NCBI GenBank assembly: GCA_025435555.1
Contig: JAIWWG010000008.1
Location: 310,001-374,000 of the forward strand
Length of the DNA stretch: 64,000 nt
DNA from: Chytriomyces cf. hyalinus JEL632
Taxonomy: Eukaryota; Chytridiomycota; Chytridiomycetes; Chytridiales; Chytriomycetaceae
Direction of reading: 5' to 3'
This document shows, piece after piece, positions 4,776 to 52,300 of this stretch. Below the pieces are notes generated by a model. That model was not told the DNA's origin. It did no database searches and worked only from the letters and a program-made list of their open reading frames with translations. Position 1 is the first letter of the stretch. Each line of letters begins with the position of its first letter. The position numbers were made by a program, and so were the translations under genes.

Positions 4776-5899
4776 TCAAGTTTCAGAACCATTAGAAGAT
4801 GAGGCCAGTTGCTGCAACATGACGCGGTGGGATTCTCCCAATTGTGTTTCAAGGCTTTTTATCCGATCCAAGAGGTCCTGCTCGCGCTGCGAGAAACATT
4901 TGGATCCGTTTTCTAGAACTGCACATCGCAATTGCAGGGTTTCATTTTCGCGCTCCAGATTTGAACACTTCGCCTCCAGATGCCCGAGCTTTGCGCTTTT
5001 CTTTGATCGCCCGGTGGAACGAATCGCAGTCCTGCATGTATGATCGTCAATTTCGTCAACGCTTCGTTTTTTAGTGATATTATGTGCTGAGCCTCCGACA
5101 ATTTCAAATTGTGGCGACTGTGAAGGAGAAGAGTTCGAGAGGGTGTCTGCAGCTGGGCTTCGAACAAAGACAGTTGGTTTCCGTACAGTGACCAATGGGA
5201 CAGTTGTGGTGGATGTGCCTTTCGGAATAGATTTCATCTGATGCGGGCCACAAAGAGGAGTAGATAGTGGCGTAAATGAACCACTGAAGGCATTAGATGG
5301 AATGGCAGAGTGCGACGGCACATATTGCGATGTTTGTTTGAAAATTGGTGGAGATTGGATGTGCAAATTGGGTTGAAGTCGTGCATTGCCGGCTGTCTGA
5401 GAACTGGAGGATGGTAACTGGAATGGGGGAGGTTGAACGGGACCAGCTGCCAGCGCGGCATGCATGGCTGAATTGCCCATGGTTCGCGATGTTGGAATCG
5501 AGCTCATATCCCACGGATTCAGAGTCTGGCGACCAGGGAGAAGCGACGAGGAATCGTACACGAACGAAAAGTCTGCCGCCCCAGAGTCTGCATTGCTGAG
5601 CAACCACGACGAGTCGGCAATAAGTCCAAACGAATCTGCGCCACAGTCCCAACTTTTAGAAAATGTGGTGCGCTGTCCCACGCCGTTCATAGCATCAAGA
5701 ACTCACCGAGAAACAGCTCATCTATTAGGGATTTAGCAACCCCCGTTTGTGGTGGCGGCAGTTCACCGACGACTCCTTCAGCCGTATTCTGAAGAATCGG
5801 TCCCGCATGACCTGTGCTCTGAAGTCCGATTCGTTTTTGCCGGTCGAGAGGGACTCCTGCGAGTCTCCCTTTCGGGGTGGTTGAGCGTACATAGCACAT
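4776..5899 (-). CDS. Gcn4-like bZIP protein with degenerate basic region
   Basis: The main minus-strand exon gives a Ser/Pro/Asn-rich region followed by a C-terminal coiled coil: KLGHLEAKCSNLERENETL, then LQLRCAVLE and DLLDRIKSLETQLGESHR. This heptad pattern, ending in an AESHR-like tail, resembles Gcn4/CPC-1 family zippers, which bind DNA as dimers and control amino-acid biosynthesis. The segment in front of the zipper reads RTAIRSTGRSKKSAK. It aligns with the usual NTxAARRSRxKK but lacks the conserved Asn and the AAR core. A short 5' exon may end in AKSLIDELFLG (about 5707), joined by an intron of about 65 nt to DSFGLIADSSWLL. The alternative is a single exon starting at the ATG at 5690. 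The N-terminal part has acidic and aromatic patches (WLLSNADSGAADFSF) like an activation domain. Confidence 0.65.
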
Positions 5900-6530
5900 T
5901 GCTTGGTGGTGTTAATTTTTCGTTTTTCAATAACAGGTTTCTGAACTCCCAAAATTGCAGCAAGTGTGGATCGCATTTCACATGCAGCCAGCGACGGTCC
6001 TCCATGCGATGGAAGCCCGGCCATGGCTTCTTAAGCACCGCCAGAGCCGGTCTTTTTGACGGAGACGTCTTGTTCAGCCAGTCGCTCAAGTGCGCCCGCC
6101 CTGCTTGGATTATGTAAGCAGGGGTTTGACCGCAAATTTGTGCGACGTGCTTAAAATTGCTATTTTTTGGTGCGTGACCTAAAATAGACGTGCCATGCGC
6201 TGGTGAGGCGTGTGCTGAAACGGCGCCTGATACGTCATTTTGATGCCGCTTCTTTCCGCTGCAATTCAGAGCAACTTTATCCCCAGAGTAAAGCTGAAGA
6301 ATACTGCGATGTGTGTTGAATGACATGTGCGGAGACGGAGCAATAATAGCAACTAAATCTTGGCAAGTAACTAAACATGAAGCACATGCACGCACAGGAA
6401 CCTGTGGTGCAGAGAGTTCAATGGCTGAGTAGCACGCTTAAAAATGGTCAGATTCAACGCTCTGACTCGAACGCAAAGGAAGACTGTGCCTGGGAATCAT
6501 ATGGTGCGGAGTTGAAAACAAATAATTTAA
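5900..6530. other. Stretch between divergent genes, one unassigned minus-strand frame
   Basis: A minus-strand open frame covers about 5778-6395 but overlaps the bZIP 5' exon in another frame and has no motif I recognise. It may be part of the bZIP leader exon or chance. The stretch should contain the promoters of the bZIP gene and of the plus-strand oxidoreductase gene. Confidence 0.3.
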
Positions 6531-7505
6531 ATGAACAGTGGTGCCTGCACAGCGACCCTCCACTTTTACTCGCACACGCAGGACGGCAACCCCCCATACT
6601 TGTACCTTACCAGCAAACGGAGTCCGCCAGAGGGCCAGCCGCGGTGCAACATTGTAAACAAAGCAGTGGAGGTGACAGTGAGGGACTTGCGCGGACTGGA
6701 GAACAAGTTCAGTACAGACAGGAACGGTTTCCAGACTGCGGCAATCGATTGGAAGCATCTCGAGAACGCGGCTGGAACAGCGGCTCATCCGGCGCATGTG
6801 CACTTTGACTGGGACAACCAGACACTTGTTACAGACACCGTGCACCCTCTTGCAATTGCCGCGCTGCGGAATGCATTCCCATCTGCCGCGTCCGTACAAG
6901 TAATCGGAACATGTATCCCGCGGTCCTCCGATCCGTCCCACAAACTGTCGCCCAGTTCGTCGAACCTGCTTGTGCATCCTGCGTGTGCAGTGCACATTGA
7001 TCAATCGCATACATCCGGCATTGAAATTGCGCAACGATTCATCCCGCCGCATTTGGTTGGAAAGCTGCGGTTTCAAGTCGTGAATGTGTGGATCCCGCTC
7101 TCAGACACCGTTGTGGATTATCCGCTTGCGTTGTGCGATTCGCAATCAGTCTCAGAAGATGCTATTGTGCCTGTCAAGACGTTCTTGATTGCAAGAGATG
7201 GAGAGAATTGCCGCATTCGGCATGAGGATAAAATGGAGTGGTGGTATTGGAGCGGAATGAAGCGAGGGGAGGCCCTTCTCATCAAATGTTTTGATAGCCA
7301 GCTTCTGTGGGACGATTTGGATGCAAATCAATCTCGCGATGGGGACCCAGAATGTGCGGATGCGAATTGCACGGAAAGGGAAGGTTGTCGCGTTCGATGC
7401 CCACACACTGCATTTCGGGATCCACGGGTACCAGCAGTCTCAGAATACACAGGCCCATTCCGCCGTAGTGTTGAAGTACGTTGTGTTGTCATCGGGGCGT
7501 TGTGA
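6531..7505 (+). CDS. GA4-desaturase / CmcJ-AsaB family 2-oxoglutarate-type oxidoreductase
   Basis: A single exon of 324 codons. Family landmarks in order: an N-terminal strand region with YLYLTSKRSPP; AVHIDQSHTSGIEIAQRF, giving the HxD pair expected of the Fe(II) site; VNVWIPLSDTVVDYPLALCD; MEWWYWSGMKRGEALLIKCFDS; and PHTAFRDPRVPAVS followed by RRSVEVRCVV, giving the distal His and the Arg that binds the co-substrate. These match the fungal gibberellin GA4 desaturase-like and CmcJ/AsaB proteins, usually about 280-320 residues. Members hydroxylate, desaturate or epoxidise small molecules, often in secondary metabolism. No biosynthetic neighbour is seen here, so the substrate is unknown. Length and intact motifs suggest a working enzyme. 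Confidence 0.85.
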   Translation: MNSGACTATLHFYSHTQDGNPPYLYLTSKRSPPEGQPRCNIVNKAVEVTVRDLRGLENKFSTDRNGFQTAAIDWKHLENAAGTAAHPAHVHFDWDNQTLVTDTVHPLAIAALRNAFPSAASVQVIGTCIPRSSDPSHKLSPSSSNLLVHPACAVHIDQSHTSGIEIAQRFIPPHLVGKLRFQVVNVWIPLSDTVVDYPLALCDSQSVSEDAIVPVKTFLIARDGENCRIRHEDKMEWWYWSGMKRGEALLIKCFDSQLLWDDLDANQSRDGDPECADANCTEREGCRVRCPHTAFRDPRVPAVSEYTGPFRRSVEVRCVVIGAL

Positions 7506-7599
7506 GGAGATTTGTCTTTGTGTGAAGTAGTGATTCATTGCCAATCAAGGAAGACCATGTGTCCAGGAGGCTAGTTTGGAGTTATAATTCAAAGCTACA

Positions 7600-8340
7600 T
7601 TACTCTTTTTTATTTTCAGTTGCAACCTTTGCTGCGGCGTTTATCCTTTTGTCTCTCATAGTCAGATGTTTATAGATGCTCTCATATGAACCAAACACCT
7701 CTACAATATGCTCCTCAAACTTCTTGTCGCTTTGAAGGAAATCGGGGTTGACTTCAACCTTGTGATCAATGCGGGCTGCAAATAAAGAGATGATGGTCCC
7801 TACAGAGATCTATTCAATTGAGATGAGAGGTTGTGATTTGGAACGAGTAAAAGACAATTTACGTAACTGGAATAGAAATGTCATACTTGCTGAGTTTCAA
7901 AAAAGATACCTCACCTCCATACAGCAGGGTAGATGGTATGACTTTACAATCTTTCCTGTCAATATGTTTTGGATTCAACATATTCCTGACTATGTAACGC
8001 AATAAGAATCCACCATTTTCTGCCAGCCTTGAAGCAACTTCTTGTTCATGCTTGTTGATGAGGTGTGCAACTTTTTTCTTCCTTTCAACAGAGCAAGGAA
8101 AGAAGAACGCATTCAATTCATCCGCAAGAGCCAGTGTTTGCAGGGTCGAACTACCATGTGACTTGTCCAGCAAAGCACACATAGGCATTTTCTCCCCCAC
8201 ATCATTGTAGCAGGCAAATTTTCCTTCCCATGTCTTTCTTGAAAGCTTGAGTCCCGTCTCTGTATGGCCTGGCATATTGAAGATAGACAGATTGTACAGC
8301 CTTTCAATTCCTTCTTTGACTTTGAGTGAGATTTTTCCAT
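7600..8340 (-). CDS. Unrecognised host gene, 5' end cut by an LTR insertion
   Basis: Two minus-strand exons read as one protein: from KISLKVKEGIERLYNL near 8330 through GKFACYNDVGEKMPMC and RLAENGGFLLRYIVRN to an exon end at 7863, then an intron 7776-7862 (87 nt), then RIDHKVEVNPDFLQSDKKF to a TAA at 7600-7602. The frame stays open up to the boundary of a Copia LTR at 8340 and has no start codon of its own, so the N-terminal part is missing. I do not recognise the family; the product is charged, soluble-looking and mostly helical. The frame starting MEKSHSKSKK in the same place is a shadow. Inference: a host gene or older element split by the retrotransposon. Confidence 0.5.
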
Positions 8341-17100: not shown

Positions 17101-19873
17101 ATGGCACCCAAGTCAGTCAACAAGATCAACCTTCTTACCTGCAAAGATGGCATCGAGGCCTTTCCAAAATGGGCTGCAGAACTCTTTCTTGAACTCAACT
17201 TGGTCATCAAGTTTCCAAAAGGATACACACAGGGATCCACTGGACATTACAGATTTCATTCATCAAGACATGATGGCTCCACTTCAAGACGACTATCCCA
17301 CACAACCAGCTGTTGTTGCCTGAGCAGAGCAGTTGCCAAATCCGGCATTAGGCTTGTCATAGGTAAGTTTCTCTGCAATCTCAAGGACGATGGCACACCA
17401 AATCCTTGCAAGTCTGTGACTGCCATGAAGGCTTTCTTGCAAATTGAGGCAGCGGAACTTCGTCAGGTTCAAGCACAGCATAAGGAGACAGACTCTCTGG
17501 AACCAGGAGCGGCACTTCAGCTTCCTTGAAATTTGGGAACAGGTCAAGAAATTCTATTGGAGGGACATGGACACTGGCAAGCCGGGGAGAAAGGGATAAA
17601 ATTGAAGTGATTGTTTGCCAGCTGCTGTGGAACATCTCAGAGGAGACTCTCAAAGTGGCAATGGAAAATTTTGGACCAACCATGCACATATCTATTGGTA
17701 CCAGATCTGAAGGGAAGCCATCAGGACTGGCCTGGGTGACGTTTCAAAGTGCAGAAGCAGCAGCAAAAGCTATTGGGTGCAAGAATCTGGCATTTCCACA
17801 GGCTTCAGGAGAAAGTGTCCCAGTGATTATGCTCAAGTCAGAACATCATGGCAACCAGCCCAAGCAAGGAGTGGCAAATCAAGCTTTGGGCTTCGTGTTC
17901 CTCCCAATAAACCACAGTGACGCCTATACTCTGTCCATTTCATGGGAGGACTCAATCACACTAAATCTGGATTCAGCAGCATCAGGTTCACTTGGATATC
18001 ATCCAGCTTTTGCACAAATGCCATGCATTCCAACAACATGGAGTGGGATAGATGGGGGCAAGATTGTCGGGAGTGGCCATGAGGGCTCTATATCAGGCAC
18101 CTCAGCAGTTCCAGTGGTGTACACTGCTCCTCCCATAGAACATACACCACATGCCACCCATAATCTACTAAGTGTCAATGACGACCTTACCAAGAACAAC
18201 TACAGTGTCTTGTTTGATCACTCAGATATGAGTGCAAGCATTGGATATTTCCCGGCAAATGGGCCACGAGAAGTGTTTGCAAAAGGCTTCAAAATGGGAG
18301 GATTGTTTCCCATCACAATTAAGCACTCCCTTTGACCAGTTCTAGCAGCTGCTCCATCTTGGAAGACAAGGAACCTGGTATGGCACAATTGCACACATAT
18401 TGGCAACAAAGCTCTTGAACAAACATTTCGGCTTGCAGCTGCAGATGGTCTGGATCTCATGCTATCGGACACAAATGATACAGAAGCTGTGTGCAACTGT
18501 GAAGCTTGTGTCCTAGCCAAGATGCGCCAGCTTCCACACCCACGATCTCTGGGTGCACGTTACCAGCCCGACAAACTGCTTGAAGTGGTGACTGCAGACC
18601 TGATGGTTTTCTCACACAACAACAAGTCCCTTGGGGGGAGCAGCTGCTATCTGACTCTCACTGTCAGAAATGCTTTGGGTTATCATTTTGGATTTGGGGT
18701 TGATAGCAAAGCCAAAGCTGCCAAGCTGTATCAGTGGTCAAAACAATGGTTGGAGCGGACTATGGGACAAAAGCTCAAATCATGGTCCCTTGACAAAGGT
18801 GGTGAAAATTACCCAACTTGGTTTCTTGAAGCATGCCGGGAGAGTGGAGTCTCATATGTCAACATGGGGACAGAACAGCCTCAGTCACTCAGGATGGAAG
18901 AGGGGTACCACGGCATAGCCATGGACAGACACTGTGCACTGACCATCCAGGCAAATGCTCCAACCAACCTCTGGGTTGATGGTCTCAACCACCAAGCAGA
19001 AATCTACAATTCATTTCTACACAAAGAGGATACCATCATGCCTCATGAAGCACTATTTGGATCCAAGCCAACTGTTTGCAATCTCAAGACACTTTTCTGT
19101 GTTGCATATGCATACAAACTTCCAAAAAATTGCACAGAAGGCAAGTCAAGTTCCCGAGCAGTGAAAGGTCGATACATTGGTCATTCAAACTATCCATGGC
19201 AACCCAAGTGTGAAAAGCCAGGCTACCGTATTCTCACTCAAGATGATGATCCCTACTCTATTGTGGTCAGCTGAGATGTGGCATTCATCGAGGATCAGTT
19301 TGATCTAAGTAATGTGAATCCTCTCCAAAATCCAGTCAAGACTCTCTCCTGGGACAATTTTCAGCAAGATGTTAGGATTTGGCTTATGGGCTGATAAGTA
19401 TTTATTATCTTAAGGTGAATCACAACACATCAAAAACAGCTCTCCTTATATATATTTTTGGCTCCCATAAAATCTCATTGGGCTTTCTTCAGTTTCACTT
19501 TTGAGCCACCCTTTTTTTCATTTCATTTGTCATTTCATTTCTACAAATGAGATTTGATGTGAAATCATCCATTTTTCATTTGCAGTTTGAAATTGCTGAA
19601 AAAGTGAGTCAGTGCTGACAATTCAGTTTTTCAAGCTGATTATCATCTGCAAGGACAACCAAGCAGCTATTGCATCCAGCAGAAATACGATTGTCCACAT
19701 GCTCAGCAAGACAATGTTTGTTTGTCTGTGAAGCTGTTAAGGAATGCAACATTGAGTCAGCATTTGTTCCAACCAAAGACCAAAAGGCAGATGGACTTAC
19801 CAAGGAGAAGGGGCCAAGTGAGTTTGTGCACTTCAGGACTGGATTGGGATTGGAGGCCAGTGTTGCTGGGTAG
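17101..19873 (+). mobile_element. Copia-type LTR retrotransposon C, internally deleted
   Basis: Plus-strand blocks. 17101-17529 is gag-like, from MAPKSVNKINLLTC. 17526-18335 carries the protease region with LDSAASGSL, where the usual DSGA is altered to DSAA, and VYTAPPIEHTPHATHNLLS. 18459-19274 is the pre-integrase Cys motif CNCEACVLAKMRQL plus the integrase core (TADLMVF, SLDKGGEN and a downstream Glu in RMEEGYHG). Reverse transcriptase is absent: after 19310 a 257-bp foreign repeat (19388-19644) occurs. The frame then resumes in RNase H: ICKDNQAAIASSRNTI, FVPTKDQKADGLTKEKG (about 19640-19873). The stop is followed by a purine tract and an LTR starting at 19880. Stops and the missing RT show this copy is dead. 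Confidence 0.8.
19388..19644 (+). repeat. Dispersed repeat R2, left arm of an inverted pair
   Basis: Begins GGGCTGATAAGTATTTATTA and runs to ..TTCAAGCTGATTATC. It is strongly similar to the reverse complement of 21514-21783, including TCACAACA(C/T)ATCAAAA, CTTATATATATTTTTG and GGGCTTTCTTCAGTTTCAC. It replaces the reverse-transcriptase part of Copia C. The type of element (solo LTR or MITE) is undecided. Confidence 0.65.
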
Positions 19874-19879
19874 GGGCAT

Positions 19880-20140
19880 TGTTGGAATTCCCGGCTAATG
19901 GTGACCGGTTATGACCGCCTGTGCTGGGTGGTTCTGTGAGAGTTTTTGGGTCATATTTATGCAGCGTGTCTTTCTTACAAATTTACAGGGACTAAATTTG
20001 TGTATAAAAGAAGGTATGTATTGGACAATAAACATCACTTTTTCATGCAAATTCAATATTTTGCCATGTATGTGTTAATGTACTTGCAGCTCCAATTATC
20101 AATACTACAGTTGAGTAAAAATAGACTCATCTCATTATAA
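19880..20140 (+). repeat. Probable 3' LTR of Copia C
   Basis: Starts TGTTGGAATTCCCGG directly after a purine-rich GGTAGGGGCA tract that follows the RNase H stop. It contains TATAAAAG (about 20002) and AATAAA (about 20028) signals, as expected of an LTR promoter and poly(A) site. The 3' border is not certain. It does not resemble the partial LTR at 16938-17067. Confidence 0.5.
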
Positions 20141-20377
20141 AGTAACTCACTTGTGCATTTTTGATGAATTTGATTGCTTTGGCAGTCTCTTTAATTGCTT
20201 CCAACTTCTTTCTATCAATTTCTTCCATTGTTTTTTGTTTTTCTTTTCTACGCCATTCCCTCCTTCATCCATATCTTCTTTCTCCCTATATTCTTCATCT
20301 GTTTCTTCACCCACATTTTTGTTGCCAGCTTTTTTGAATGCTGCATCATCTAACTCTTTTCTTTGTCTGACTCATTT
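20141..20377. other. Pyrimidine-rich non-coding stretch
   Basis: T/C-rich sequence between the Copia C LTR and the minisatellite. No gene seen. Confidence 0.4.
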
Positions 20378-20640
20378 GCTTCTTCAACATTTGTTTCTTC
20401 AATATTTGTTTCTTCAATATTCATTTCTTTGATATTTGTTTCTTCTATATCTGTTTCTTCTATATCCGTTTCTTTGATGTTCATTTCTCCAACCTTTGTT
20501 TCTTTAATATTTGTTTCTTTGATATTTGTTTCTTTGACACCTGTTTCTTCGATATCCATTTCTTCCATGTTCGTGTCTTTAGTGTTTGTTTCATCCATAT
20601 CTGTTTCATTAATGTCTGAATCTCTGTTCATTTGTACGTT
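20378..20640 (-). repeat. 15-bp minisatellite encoding an (N/D)IxET-type pentapeptide array
   Basis: About 17-18 imperfect copies of a 15-base unit resembling TTTGTTTCTTC(A/G)ATA on the plus strand. On the minus strand the repeat stays open and reads as pentapeptides such as NIEET, NIKET and DIEET. The frame begins MEEESEMNVQ near 20661. Variation is mostly conservative at the codon level, which hints that it may have been coding. No other domain is attached. Confidence 0.75.
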
Positions 20641-20935
20641 CATTTCTGATTCTTCTTCCATCTGTTCTGCATCTTCATTTTTGTCCTTCTCTTTTTAGTC
20701 CATTAGTTCATTACCTCAATTTGTTGCCACCTTCTCAAGACATGCTGTGAATGAGAGAAATGATTTTCAGATCATATCTAAAATACAAACAGCAACTTTT
20801 ACCTTTTTTCCAAAGCTGCTGCTTTTCTTTGAATCAGATCCTCCGTTTTTTTGGTTTTGTTTGAGTTGTGGTTTCCTCATTGTCTTCTGACTCCAATCCT
20901 TTCATTCCCTCCAGAAGAACTCTGTGGAAGGAATG
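20641..20935. other. Non-coding stretch before repeat R1
   Basis: A/T-rich with no supported gene. Ends with a purine run GGAAGGAATG just before the TG end of the right R1 copy. Confidence 0.35.
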
Positions 20936-21499
20936 TGTTGAATATCAGTCTCAAGTGATGGAGTTTGGTTAATTCTCCCCGATTCATCTCTTATTCTCCA
21001 CTGCAGATAAAGAAGAGTCTGGTGCCTCACCATTCCACTAACCTCAATATATATGGGCATGAATTATGACGTTGAGTAGGGTAAATATCTAGTAGATAAC
21101 AAGGAATGAACATACGAATCTTCATGTTCTATAAAGGGTGCAGACTTATAGATGACGATAGCTTATTCCACTACATGATTTCAACTATTCTTGCTCTGAT
21201 CAAGCATAAACATGGTTGAAAAGCAAATATATAGAATTTACTTGATTCTGGCATAGCTGTTTAGGTTCGCAACTACAGACCCTCAGGTCACTGGTTCAAC
21301 CCATACTACTGCCAACTCCATGCAGTTATCTTCTGATCTTTATAGGGAAATAAGCAAAAGAAGAGGAAATAGAAATCAACTTAGACAAGTATTCTATTAC
21401 CACTTTTGTATGACTAATCTGTCAAGCCAGTCAAGCAATTAATCAATAACCTTACTCACTGTGGGATTATTGATTATAATTGACAAGCCTTTGCTGTCA
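20936..21499 (+). repeat. LTR-like repeat R1, right copy, containing tRNA-like boxes
   Basis: Matches 14016-14599 over its length in the same orientation, with small indels. The tRNA-like A box TGGCATAGCTG is at 21249-21259 and the B box GGTTCAACCC at 21293-21302. TATAAAGGGTGCAGAC is also kept. Confidence 0.6.
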
Positions 21500-21513
21500 G
21501 CCCAGTTCTGATT

Positions 21514-21783
21514 AACTTATCAGCCTGAAAACTGATTTGTGAGTAATGACTCGTTTTTTCAGCAATTTCAAGGTGGAAAATGACAAATGAGTGATTTCAC
21601 ATCCATAATGACTTTTCTAACTGAAAATCTCAATTATGACAAATGAAATGGAAAAAAAAGTAGCTAAGAAGTGAAACTGAAGAAAGCCCAATTAGATTTT
21701 ATGGGAGACAAAAATATATATAAGGAAAGCTGTTTTGATATGTTGTGATTCATCCTTAAGATAATAAATACTTATCAGCCCAA
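21514..21783 (-). repeat. Dispersed repeat R2, right arm of the inverted pair
   Basis: Reverse complement of the 19388-19644 repeat, about 270 bp. It lies immediately left of the Fanzor relic and right of R1, so it may mark a border of the module carrying the Fanzor gene. Confidence 0.65.
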
Positions 21784-22137
21784 GTTCAAAACCAAATACA
21801 TCTGTCTGTCGAACTGTACTGGATGTCAACCCATGGTAAGGAGGGTTTGGACAATCTGACACCTGCAGATATGAAGGCAATCAAAGCACATGGGTCAGCA
21901 ATTATAAAGAGATTGCTCTTTGAGTATGTCAATGTGCCAACAGTGATAGAACATTCTGCAAAAAGCAAAGTCTCTGATTCCACAATCCACCCAGCATGAC
22001 AAGTTATTCTTTAAAATGCGATCTGTTTACAGACATCACATGGTTTACTCCAGAAGCAAATCAGGCAAAGTTCAACACACACCCTTGGCAATTTGTCTGC
22101 AAGTTTCCAAAACAAGAAACACAACCGCAAGCCCAGC

Positions 22138-23285
22138 AATGGCAGGCCAGACAAGTCTGGATTGCTCGAGTACGGCTACATGGTGTTCAAGAACACCATC
22201 TCCACAGAGAGGCACAAAGCAGGAATACATTACATCAATCAACATTGAAGCATATAGGGCTGGTTGGCTTGACACCACTTCTGTGAAACCATCAAAACAG
22301 TTCAACATTAAGTTCCCTTACGTTCATAAGCTGCCAAAAGAGAAGAAGCCCACAGATGCTGAAAACACAAATCTGCTGTACTGCAAGGACCTCAGAAGCA
22401 GTGAGAGGTATTGCCTCCTCTTTGTGGATCCTGGCAAGAAAAGTATTGTCACAGTTGGAACAGGTGAAAGGCGATGGTGTTCTCACCTACACCTACTCAC
22501 AATGACAAAGTGAAACTCTCAGGAAGCGGAACCAAGACAAATACAAGCGCAGCATTTCAAAAGTAGTCGTGGGTGACAATGGCCAGGTGCTGCAGTTTAC
22601 AGACCAGGAGGATGTCACTCATGACATCACTTTGGAAACCCTCATCACCATGGGATATGTGCAAGACTACACTGGTTCCCATTCTTCCTCCAACCTTGAC
22701 CGCTTCCATGCGTACTGGAAACATGTCTTGTCAGATTTCTACCAGAATCAACAACAACAGCATCGCAGGTACCAAGCCCAGCTTGGAGTCCGAAGTTCAG
22801 AGAGCAACTTGGCCAGGAACATCCAGTCCAAGTTCAAAGGCGGTGACTGCAAGGTGGTACTTTGCTGGGGAAACTGAGGTCGCAGCCAAACATCAAGAAT
22901 CAACCACCGACACCAGGAGTTGGGCTCCGCCGAATCATGGGCCAGGACTTCAAGAATATATATCCAGTTCTGCCCACACTGTGATTCAGACGTGGGACAT
23001 CCACTCAGTCAACTGACATCAGATGGCAGGACTCGCGAAATCCATCATTTGCTACGTTGCAAAAACGAATCATGCAGCAGATGGTGGCAGCGAGACCTCT
23101 TGCCAACTTTAAGCGGCAAGTTGAGTACAGATTGGAGCATGGAAAAACCAACCCCATTTTCGGTCCTAAGTCCCAAGCCCAAGCCCAACCCAAATGCAGG
23201 TGGAGGTGGAGGTGGAGGTGGAGGTGGGAAGAAGAGAAAATCCAGCAACGAAACGGTGGTCATGGAACAGGTCATCAAGCGCTGA
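22138..23285 (+). pseudogene. Fanzor (eukaryotic TnpB homologue, RNA-guided nuclease family), disrupted
   Basis: Family landmarks appear in the right order but in changing frames. LLEYGYMVFKNTISTE resembles the strand before the RuvC core (frame at 22138-22251). After a shift come FPYVHKLPKE and FVDPGKKSIVTV, whose Asp is the expected RuvC-I catalytic residue (about 22425-22455). After another shift comes LTYTYSQ, a TGA (22503-22505), then QSETLRKRNQDKYKRS. RSSESNLARNIQSKF and VVLCWGN follow, ending at a TGA (22875-22877) where the family has the GDW-type Trp. Then PTPGVGLRRIMGQDF (22907-22950), a signature of Fanzor proteins, and CPHC..LLRCKNESCSRWWQRD, the terminal zinc finger. The usual VDExRTS segment between the last two is not seen. 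The frame then runs into poly-Gly and KKRKSS, ending at 23285. Family knowledge: Fanzors use an RNA encoded near the 3' end of the gene to cut DNA. At least three frameshifts and two stops make this copy non-functional as read; introns do not explain them well. Confidence 0.85.
23198..23238 (+). repeat. GGTGGA microsatellite (poly-Gly)
   Basis: About six GGTGGA units at the 3' end of the Fanzor reading frame, giving ten Gly residues before a basic KKRK stretch that resembles a nuclear localisation signal. Confidence 0.85.
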
Positions 23286-23464
23286 CGTGCGCGACATACA
23301 AGCTGATAGACGGTGAATCCGAGTGGGAAGACCGTGTTGGCGATTCCTCATTCACATACATCTTAGTTTTCTTAGGTGTTTGTTATGAGTTGAAAATGTG
23401 TTGTCATCGGTTGTAAAAAAAATGTGTCAGTATAAATATTTAAGTAAAAATCCAACAGTAAACC

Positions 23465-49720: not shown

Positions 49721-52300
49721 TCAGAGTGTCAGCAGCTCCTGATGGAATCGAATCACTTTGTGATGTGCCATAACCTTGTCCTTTCGGAAATTCACCACCT
49801 GTAAGCCATCCAAGCTGACGGCTCGTGACAACGCAACATATGTCTGACCCTTTTCAAACACTTTCCCGAGATCCACGCGCAGATATTCGATTGTTTGGCC
49901 TTGACTTTTATGGATACTCCTTTAAAAAGCGAGCAACACAGCAAACCGAGAAACCGTTAAGCTTGGGCGAATGGGAATTCACGCGAATGAAAAAACGGAG
50001 GGGATACGCACAACGCATAGGCCAATAGTAAAGGAAACTGAACACGAGCAACTTCTTTAACAGTCATTTTGGTTGAACCTGGGAGTTCTACCGACCATCG
50101 CTCCTGCAAAAAGGACGAGGAGACAGATCAAACATTGAGGCTTAAAACCAACGCATCTACGGAAAAACTCACCTGATTCACAGTTAACCGCCTCATTTCC
50201 GAACTTCCACGAACATAAAAGTCAACGACAGGTGCCCCGTTAACCGAATCGAATCCAATCACACGCCCCAAGCTTCCATTTACAAGACTACTGTCTGGCA
50301 GATTTTTAATGAGCATCACTTGGGCACCCACTTTAAGCTCTAGCCGCTCAGGCGCGAGACAGTCTTTCAGCTTGTCCGCGTACATGTCGTCGCCTTCAAG
50401 TTTCGCGTCGTGGGCCCAGGTTTCTCCTGGTAACGCATTCAGATGAAGGCGGTTGCATGCATCCACTTGAACTCGAGTAGCAAATCTAAAGCGGGCCCAT
50501 GAATCAACAAATCGCATCAAAATAAAAATAAAAATAAGCAGTTTACAATTCGGTAGGGACGATGTCTTCTTTTCCAGCTGGAAACACGATAGGTCTGCTC
50601 AATGCCCTCAACCGCGACTCCGTCGCCGGCGTAACAAGTCCGTTCCGCATTTCGTTCAGAATCTGAACAAATACAGGATCCTTCTGCCGAAACACTTCCT
50701 TAAGCTAGTATTTGCGGGGGGGTGGGCAAGCGATGGTAAGTTTGCATCAAAACCAATGCCGAGTCTGATTTAGTACCAGAATCGTTCGGCTCATGCAACT
50801 TTTCCAAGATTTGGCCTCAAACGCAAAATGAGACTCCCCTCTACTGACCGGAGGTAATTGCATGAAATCACCACAAATAACGAGCTGGAATAAGAAAGCG
50901 CGTTGGAAGACTTCGAAGCCGCAAAAGTGTAATCGAGCTGCTTTCGTCACCTGAATTCCCCCAAACGGCCGCGGACTGTCACGCACCATTCGAGCAATTT
51001 CTTCAAGCTTGTCGAAAAAGTATCCATCCACCATGGAGACTGTTAAGAAGTGTGAGATGGCTGGCGAAGGATATGTGTCAAAGTCCTTACTTTCATCAAT
51101 GATCAGAACTTGAGTTGTTCTCCATCGAGTGAATGTTTGTCTATTTGATTTGATTTTACCAATGAGCTTTTCAGCAGGTTCTGGATACCATGTATGTTGA
51201 GTTGGCATAATCAGGGATGAAACACTGAAAACCCACCTTTCGCAAGGCCACATCCTGCAAAAGAATGCAGAGTTGTTCCTCCAATATTACTCGCAGCAAT
51301 TCCTTAAAAACACGAAGCTTGATTTAGAAAACAGAGTTGCACCGCAAAAAACAAAAAAAATTACAAAAAAAAACAAAAAAACAAAGAGCAAAAAACCTGT
51401 TGGGGCAGTGATCGCAATCTGATCGCGCGTTTTACTCAATTTTAGTACCCGAATAATTTCACGCATGAGCACTGATTTCCCCGTCCCGGCACTTCCGGTG
51501 TAAAACACGCTCTCACCACCCGACACAAAACTCAACACTTCCGTCTGCTCACGGGTCAATTGCACAGCAGATTCATTCACAGCACCCAACCCAGATTTCT
51601 GTGCAGCCTTTGACGCAAGAAGCTGTGAAGATTCATCCATGAACCGGAATTGGGATTGCCCTGAGCCGTATTGAGGGGCATACGATGAAGTTTTGAATTC
51701 ACGAATGTTTCTTGGACCGTTGAATGAGCCTTTTGAGTTCAGTGCTTTAGATTGCCTGGCCTCTGTGCCCGGTGTTGCGGCAGAAAATCTGTCGAACGAG
51801 GATGACTGAGAGTAGGTCGACGAGTCTTTTGAATAAGAGCTGTAGGCTTTAAATGTCCTTTTGGGAGGGTCGGCCTGATCTGTATGCGAATCGAATGAAG
51901 CTGGAAGGGTCCGCTTTGACGTTGACTGCACATTGAATTGCGGCTGCTGTGAATCAGACGCAGTTCTGGTCGTCGGGTGCACTAAGGCTGATGCCGATGT
52001 GAATCCAGATGAACTTGCAGATCCAGGAAGCGATTCGTTCGCTGCTTTAGACACTGACGAAGCCAATGCCAGGAGCGAATTTGAAGGCGGTGGATTCGAT
52101 GGGGTAACTTCCGCAGCCGGGGATTCGGCGACTTTTACTTCTTGAGGGAATCTGTCGCTCGTGTTTGAAGCCTGTTTGGTGCTTGTCGGACGCGGAGTTG
52201 GAATAGGAGACGCAACACGGTGAAAATACGAGAAGATTGATGGCGTGGATCCGCTAGATTGCGGTGCTGTCTTTGCGCTCTTCCTGTTGGTGTTGTACAT
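49721..52300 (-). CDS. PIF1: PIF1-family DNA helicase
   Basis: Minus-strand multi-exon gene starting [17 protein letters not shown] and ending HQELLTL then TGA (49721-49723). The N-terminal 220 residues are Ser/Thr/Pro-rich and disordered. Helicase motifs: [15 protein letters not shown] (Q-like), [18 protein letters not shown] (I), IAITAPTG (Ia), a GCGLAKG segment completed across an intron, TTQVLIIDE then [13 protein letters not shown] (II), [17 protein letters not shown] (III), [23 protein letters not shown] (IV), and near the end [16 protein letters not shown] and [18 protein letters not shown] (V and VI). The superfamily 1B 5'-3' helicase acts on G-quadruplexes, telomeres and mtDNA in yeast. 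No mitochondrial presequence is clear. All key residues are present. Confidence 0.92.

Follow-up and report, generated by a model that had tools for sequence, protein, structure and literature searches.

Very probable remains of a dead Fanzor1-carrying transposon of the Tc1/mariner (IS630) type in a chytrid genome

According to Bao and Jurka (PMC3627910), Fanzor was first reported from Spizellomyces, a chytrid; they also described elements that combine Fanzor1 and a Mariner-like transposase. Mariner is named among the partners of Fanzor1 in PMC10711439, which also gives the pattern of the rearranged catalytic Glu. In Spizellomyces, Fanzor1 cuts DNA in an RNA-guided manner, and the guide RNA derives from the right end of the element (PMC10432273). 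Fanzor1 in chytrids and Fanzor1 beside a Mariner-type transposase are already known. Among the open-access papers searched, none was found on Fanzor with Chytriomyces, IS630 or Chytridiomycota, and those that mention Fanzor and pseudogenes were judged unrelated by title.

The window, the whole stretch of 64,000 nucleotides analysed here, belongs to a genome assembly that comprises 242 contigs and 37,782,357 bases. A locus in this window is very probably a dead copy of a Fanzor1-carrying transposon of the Tc1/mariner (IS630) type, judging from its paralogues in the same genome, of which C1 is the open copy and C57 the nearest relative. The features of the locus are as follows:

19387..21796, unstranded: repeat element whose inverted arms lie at 19387-19640 and 21519-21782, outside the Fanzor element and abutting the relic at the missing 5' part
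21796..23303, plus strand: remains of the Fanzor1 coding sequence, matching C1 from about residue 187 to 769 and bearing several frameshifts and stops as well as two larger losses
22421..22456, plus strand: RuvC-I motif FVDPGKKSIVTV (FVDPGKK) with the Asp retained, from the motif scan
22907..22951, plus strand: PTPGVGLRRIMGQDF, a conserved Fanzor stretch preceding the RuvC-II Glu, from the alignment of relatives
22955..22957, plus strand: site of a 19-bp loss that took away the VDExxTS segment and with it the rearranged RuvC-II Glu, from the alignments to C1 and C57 and the motif scan
22971..23096, plus strand: zinc-finger cysteines (CPHC, CKNESC) and RuvC-III Asp (WWQRD), from the motif scan
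23304..23401, plus strand: eroded remnant of the transposon right end with a scarcely recognisable inverted repeat; the C57 alignment stops at 23400 and the C1 alignment continues through the C1 right end

The initial annotation had read positions 22138..23285 as the relic of a Fanzor gene whose hallmark peptides stand in order but are split between frames. The paralogues in the same genome bear this out, including C60, a near copy that matches solved Fanzor1 proteins. All four peptides were located on the plus strand in two frames: FVDPGKKSIVTV and PTPGVGLRRIMGQDF share one frame, and CPHC (22971-22982) and RCKNESCSRWWQRD (23055-23096) share the other. The proposed span lies inside the relic but is too short, the Fanzor1 homology extending over about 21796-23303 and the right end to about 23401. 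The DPG motif of RuvC-I is present with its Asp, as had been claimed, and the zinc-finger cysteines are followed by the RuvC-III Asp. When the window was read against the C1 protein, five collinear rows were obtained, covering C1 residues 183-243, 372-434, 416-484, 481-769 and 630-742. For the best row (22458-23303) the E value was 7.6e-80 and the identity 56%; three TGA codons had to be read through in it. These five collinear matches place the peptides far beyond chance.

The C1 protein gave 39 rows in the genome, which were grouped by position into about 17 loci, several of them short fragments. An intact paralogue, for which a search of the rest of the genome had been suggested, was found on C1 as an open frame of 769 codons with neither stop nor introns. 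This frame unites DPGK, VDERYTS, CPHC and WWQRD, that is, all three catalytic acidic residues and the zinc finger. C60 has about 98% DNA identity to C1 and is broken once. All eight copies aligned to C1 (window, C2, C57, C60, C134, C145, C183 and C216) carry at least one frameshifting indel in that alignment. The 507-residue frame of C60 had three matches in PDB at E<=1, all of them Fanzor1: GtFz1, PpFz1 and SpuFz1, with E values of 1.1e-28, 1.2e-14 and 1e-12, respectively. In a tree of eight copies (1075 columns), the window copy and C57 formed one branch with 100% support. A TatD-type protein encoded beside C57 showed 95% identity to a Chytriomyces hyalinus protein, and a second protein matched it at 90%. 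Together with the C. hyalinus relative of the C1 protein described below, this places the organism among the chytrids, within Chytriomyces or close to it.

Upstream of the C1 Fanzor1 gene there is an open transposase frame of 313 codons, matching DDE_3 (E=5.4e-24, above the cut-off) and HTH_Tnp_IS630 (E=0.00078, just under the cut-off). Both genes are enclosed by inverted ends at L029:1856 and L029:5370, about 3.5 kb apart, which are alike at 23 of 28 positions and are each adjoined by TA; the TA beside both ends points to a TA duplication. By these sequence features the C1 element is a Tc1/mariner (IS630-type) transposon carrying an open Fanzor1, and a carrier of this type, a point absent from the initial annotation, is what the homology indicates for the window copy. 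No second intact transposase of the C1 family was present among 54 genome rows; fragments were found at C134 and C60, and the remaining rows were 22-56% identical. The C1 element would be moved by its DDE transposase acting on the inverted ends, with insertion at TA. By analogy with published Fanzor and TnpB work, we infer that its Fanzor1 binds RNA from the right end, with flanking DNA supplying the guide part, and would cleave matching sites, whereby the element would be kept or copied back.

As for the ends of the element, a 16-base end motif with one mismatch allowed occurred at 15 genome sites, versus 0 for the reversed control. Seven sites were at Fanzor copies, two of them being the C1 ends, and eight were elsewhere. 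Six of these eight showed 36-158 bp of right-end homology without a Fanzor gene; the other two, on C175 (where nothing matched) and C218 (19 bp), were regarded as chance occurrences. At C53 (L045 211-291), the right and left ends of the C1 element are joined in about 80 bp without genes, and at C182 (L048 ~229-475) both ends lie about 250 bp apart, also without genes. The last ~130 nt of the element are conserved in 10 copies with a mean column identity of 71%. The consensus fold of the right end was weak: of 26 predicted pairs, 1 showed a two-sided change, and the covariation term was unfavourable.

Saito et al. suggested for Spizellomyces that guides from ghost loci are possibly usable (PMC10432273), and the relic might likewise still yield a right-end guide RNA for the C1 Fanzor1. 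Right-end-like fragments without a Fanzor gene do exist in this genome, C53 and C182 having a left end as well. However, the window copy has an eroded right end that diverges strongly from C1, and the structure is without covariation support, so that we consider this reading very unlikely. The same slender probability attaches to the wider proposal that decayed genes, right-end fragments, the two ghosts with both ends and perhaps the window copy would provide guide RNAs in trans for the single open Fanzor1, as a scattered guide library.

The decay of the window copy was followed by comparison with its relatives. Homology to C57 begins at 21796 and stops at 23400. Near 22012 the window is without 239 bases that C57 has, and near 22956 it is without 19 bases kept in both C1 and C57, which hold the VDExxTS segment; the earlier statement that the VDExRTS part is missing thus agrees with both alignments. 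VDExxTS was found in seven of the 11 copies scanned (C1, C2, C57, C60, C134, C145 and C183), and was not found in the other four (window, C216, C188 and C232). The rearranged RuvC-II Glu, positioned six residues ahead of the first zinc CxxC, is accordingly not found in the window copy, where the segment is deleted. Two in-frame TGAs had been noted, and the five-copy alignment gave two; the pairwise alignment, in the homologous frame, gave four in-frame stops instead (one TAA and three TGA). For residues 1 to ~186 of the C1 frame, no counterpart was found in the window copy. Elsewhere in the window, neither a transposase remnant nor the lost 5' half was detected, with no match to the two C1 proteins at E<=0.01, and C57 DNA matched nothing in the window outside 21796-23400 except for a pair of short matches near 51350, which lie outside the Fanzor part. 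As to the transposon ends of the window copy, the left is absent and the right eroded. With no transposase remnant in the window, it is by homology to C1 and C57 that the copy is assigned to a probable IS630 element.

Divergence between copies was counted by codon position, with sites treated as independent. Between the window and C1 (codons 411-769), 74/339, 69/340 and 145/341 sites differed at positions 1, 2 and 3, respectively (p=6e-12), and this third-position excess shows that the lineage was formerly under selection as a protein. Between the window and C57 the corresponding counts were 26/317, 30/318 and 34/319 (p=0.57), a flat pattern indicating that both copies decayed without detectable coding constraint. 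Two other dead copies, C216 and C183, were equally flat (12/347, 13/349 and 14/350; p=0.93).

Introns occur in chytrid genes, and the locus could be an expressed Fanzor1 gene in which the apparent frameshifts are splice junctions. In keeping with this, the Chytriomyces hyalinus protein P0001 is annotated as one protein although, within a conserved stretch, it is without some residues present in C1; this gap is possibly an annotated intron. But C1 is open for 769 codons without introns, the window copy has lost its 5' part as well as the Glu segment, and it diverges from C57 evenly across codon positions; an intron-bearing gene is therefore extremely unlikely. The window copy is not an open full-length gene, having a missing 5' part, frameshifts and stops, and its sequence identifies it as a pseudogene of the family and not a working member. 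In the preferred reading of a dead transposon copy, the 5' part was lost where the other repeat abuts, the Glu segment was lost, and frameshifts and stops gathered, so that the window copy can no longer make a nuclease or act as one.

Pfam gave no TnpB/Fanzor match on the 5 raw open pieces of the relic, and a search of the genome with the PF07282 profile gave 7 places, 0 of them in the window. The relic was identified through its paralogues, since Pfam alone misses it; of the Fanzor/TnpB profile check that had been proposed, the part concerning the relic itself yielded no match, while the paralogues did match. The best Pfam results for the relic, SWT1_3rd (E=0.01), DUF4799 (0.054), SAGA-Tad1 (0.075) and Maf_N (0.24), were weak and all below the cut-offs, and this, with the missing TnpB/Fanzor domain, would suit an unrelated zinc-finger gene or chance motifs, a reading of negligible probability that is refuted by the ~580 residues of collinear homology to the Fanzor1 paralogue in C1 and by the matches of C60 to Fanzor1 in PDB.

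The repeat element that abuts the relic has arms of about 260 bp, which are 83.8% alike across 266 columns. Its right margin recurs elsewhere in the genome in at least 29 of 45 rows, a lower bound with 40 of 139 candidates scored, and in all eight right-margin loci compared the match extends to 21799-21806. The element may have reached the edge of the relic either by insertion or by recombination. No long open frame of a recognisable kind was found in 19387-21796. At 18336-19271 of the window there is a 312-codon open frame that resembles a Copia-type integrase by eye, with a weak Pfam match to SH3_retrovirus (E=0.00099, under the cut-off).

Elsewhere in the genome, a second, distant TnpB/Fanzor-like family was observed at C42 (L040 ~4830-7980, minus strand) and C188 (L039 ~4830-6000, minus strand). 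The family has a DAIDPG motif and a C-terminal LRCKTC..WNRD..AAMNIL piece, and both copies are broken. The upstream frames at C42 had no Pfam match, and their best PDB result had an E value of 0.76. At C51 (L038, plus strand), a 120-aa open frame was observed to contain a zinc-finger piece like that of TnpB/Fanzor2 (PF07282, E=2.3e-15). It lies near a protein of 1052 aa whose AEP_C962R and D5_N domains recall large DNA viruses, and the region is perhaps an integrated viral stretch:

L038 741-3899 and 4870-5064, plus strand: C51 protein and zinc-finger piece region, from Pfam

When the whole C1 protein was the query and the 8000 candidates with most words in common were scored, one relative was found, HDU78_000299 of Chytriomyces hyalinus (P0001), which shows 83% identity to the C1 Fanzor1 across 96% of the C1 protein but is annotated merely as hypothetical and is without a short stretch present in C1. 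C1 residues 440-745 gave 15 matches in the protein database, of which 11 were aligned (P0008, P0013, P0014 and P0015 were excluded). In this alignment DPGK was invariant at its Asp, Gly and Lys, as were the Glu preceding the zinc finger, the TS after that Glu and cysteines of the zinc finger; the RuvC-III Asp was nearly so. By eye, residues ~1-22 of the Fanzor relative P0004, a database protein, resemble the start of the C1 transposase (MTKCLDF versus MTKSVDF), a hint that transposase and Fanzor are neighbours in another organism too.

By itself the window copy is ordinary transposon debris; the finding extends the known hosts of Fanzor1 by a chytrid from Chytriomyces or its vicinity. GtFz1 (Guillardia theta, PDB 9cer), PpFz1 (9cf0) and SpuFz1 (8gkh) are homologous to C60 in the RuvC and zinc region and share with it the order WGNWG, PTPG, E..YTS, zinc cysteines and RWW. 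The third catalytic residue is given as Asn in GtFz1 (PMC11423790), whereas it is Asp in C1, C60 and the window; the GtFz1 locus as described in PMC10432273 seems to be without inverted repeats, unlike the C1 element, and the window copy differs further from GtFz1 in being broken. PGv-1 and PUl-1, by their description in Bao and Jurka (2013), combine a Mariner-like transposase and Fanzor1 with inverted repeats and a TA duplication, as here, but their hosts are a Phaeocystis virus and Pythium, and PGv-1 adds a third gene, a GIY-YIG nuclease. SPu-1 of Spizellomyces punctatus, which encodes SpuFz1, is likewise described as a chytrid Fanzor1 element with inverted repeats of ~30 bp, a TA duplication and many partial copies and ghosts, although the SpuFz1 sequence is distant from C60 (E=1e-12). 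SPu-1, the best-studied of the chytrid elements, is reported as a single ORF for Fanzor without a transposase of its own, while in the C1 element, of ~3.5 kb, an open transposase gene stands next to an open Fanzor1 gene. A pair of this kind would allow a test of whether Fanzor1 aids the persistence of a cut-and-paste transposon.
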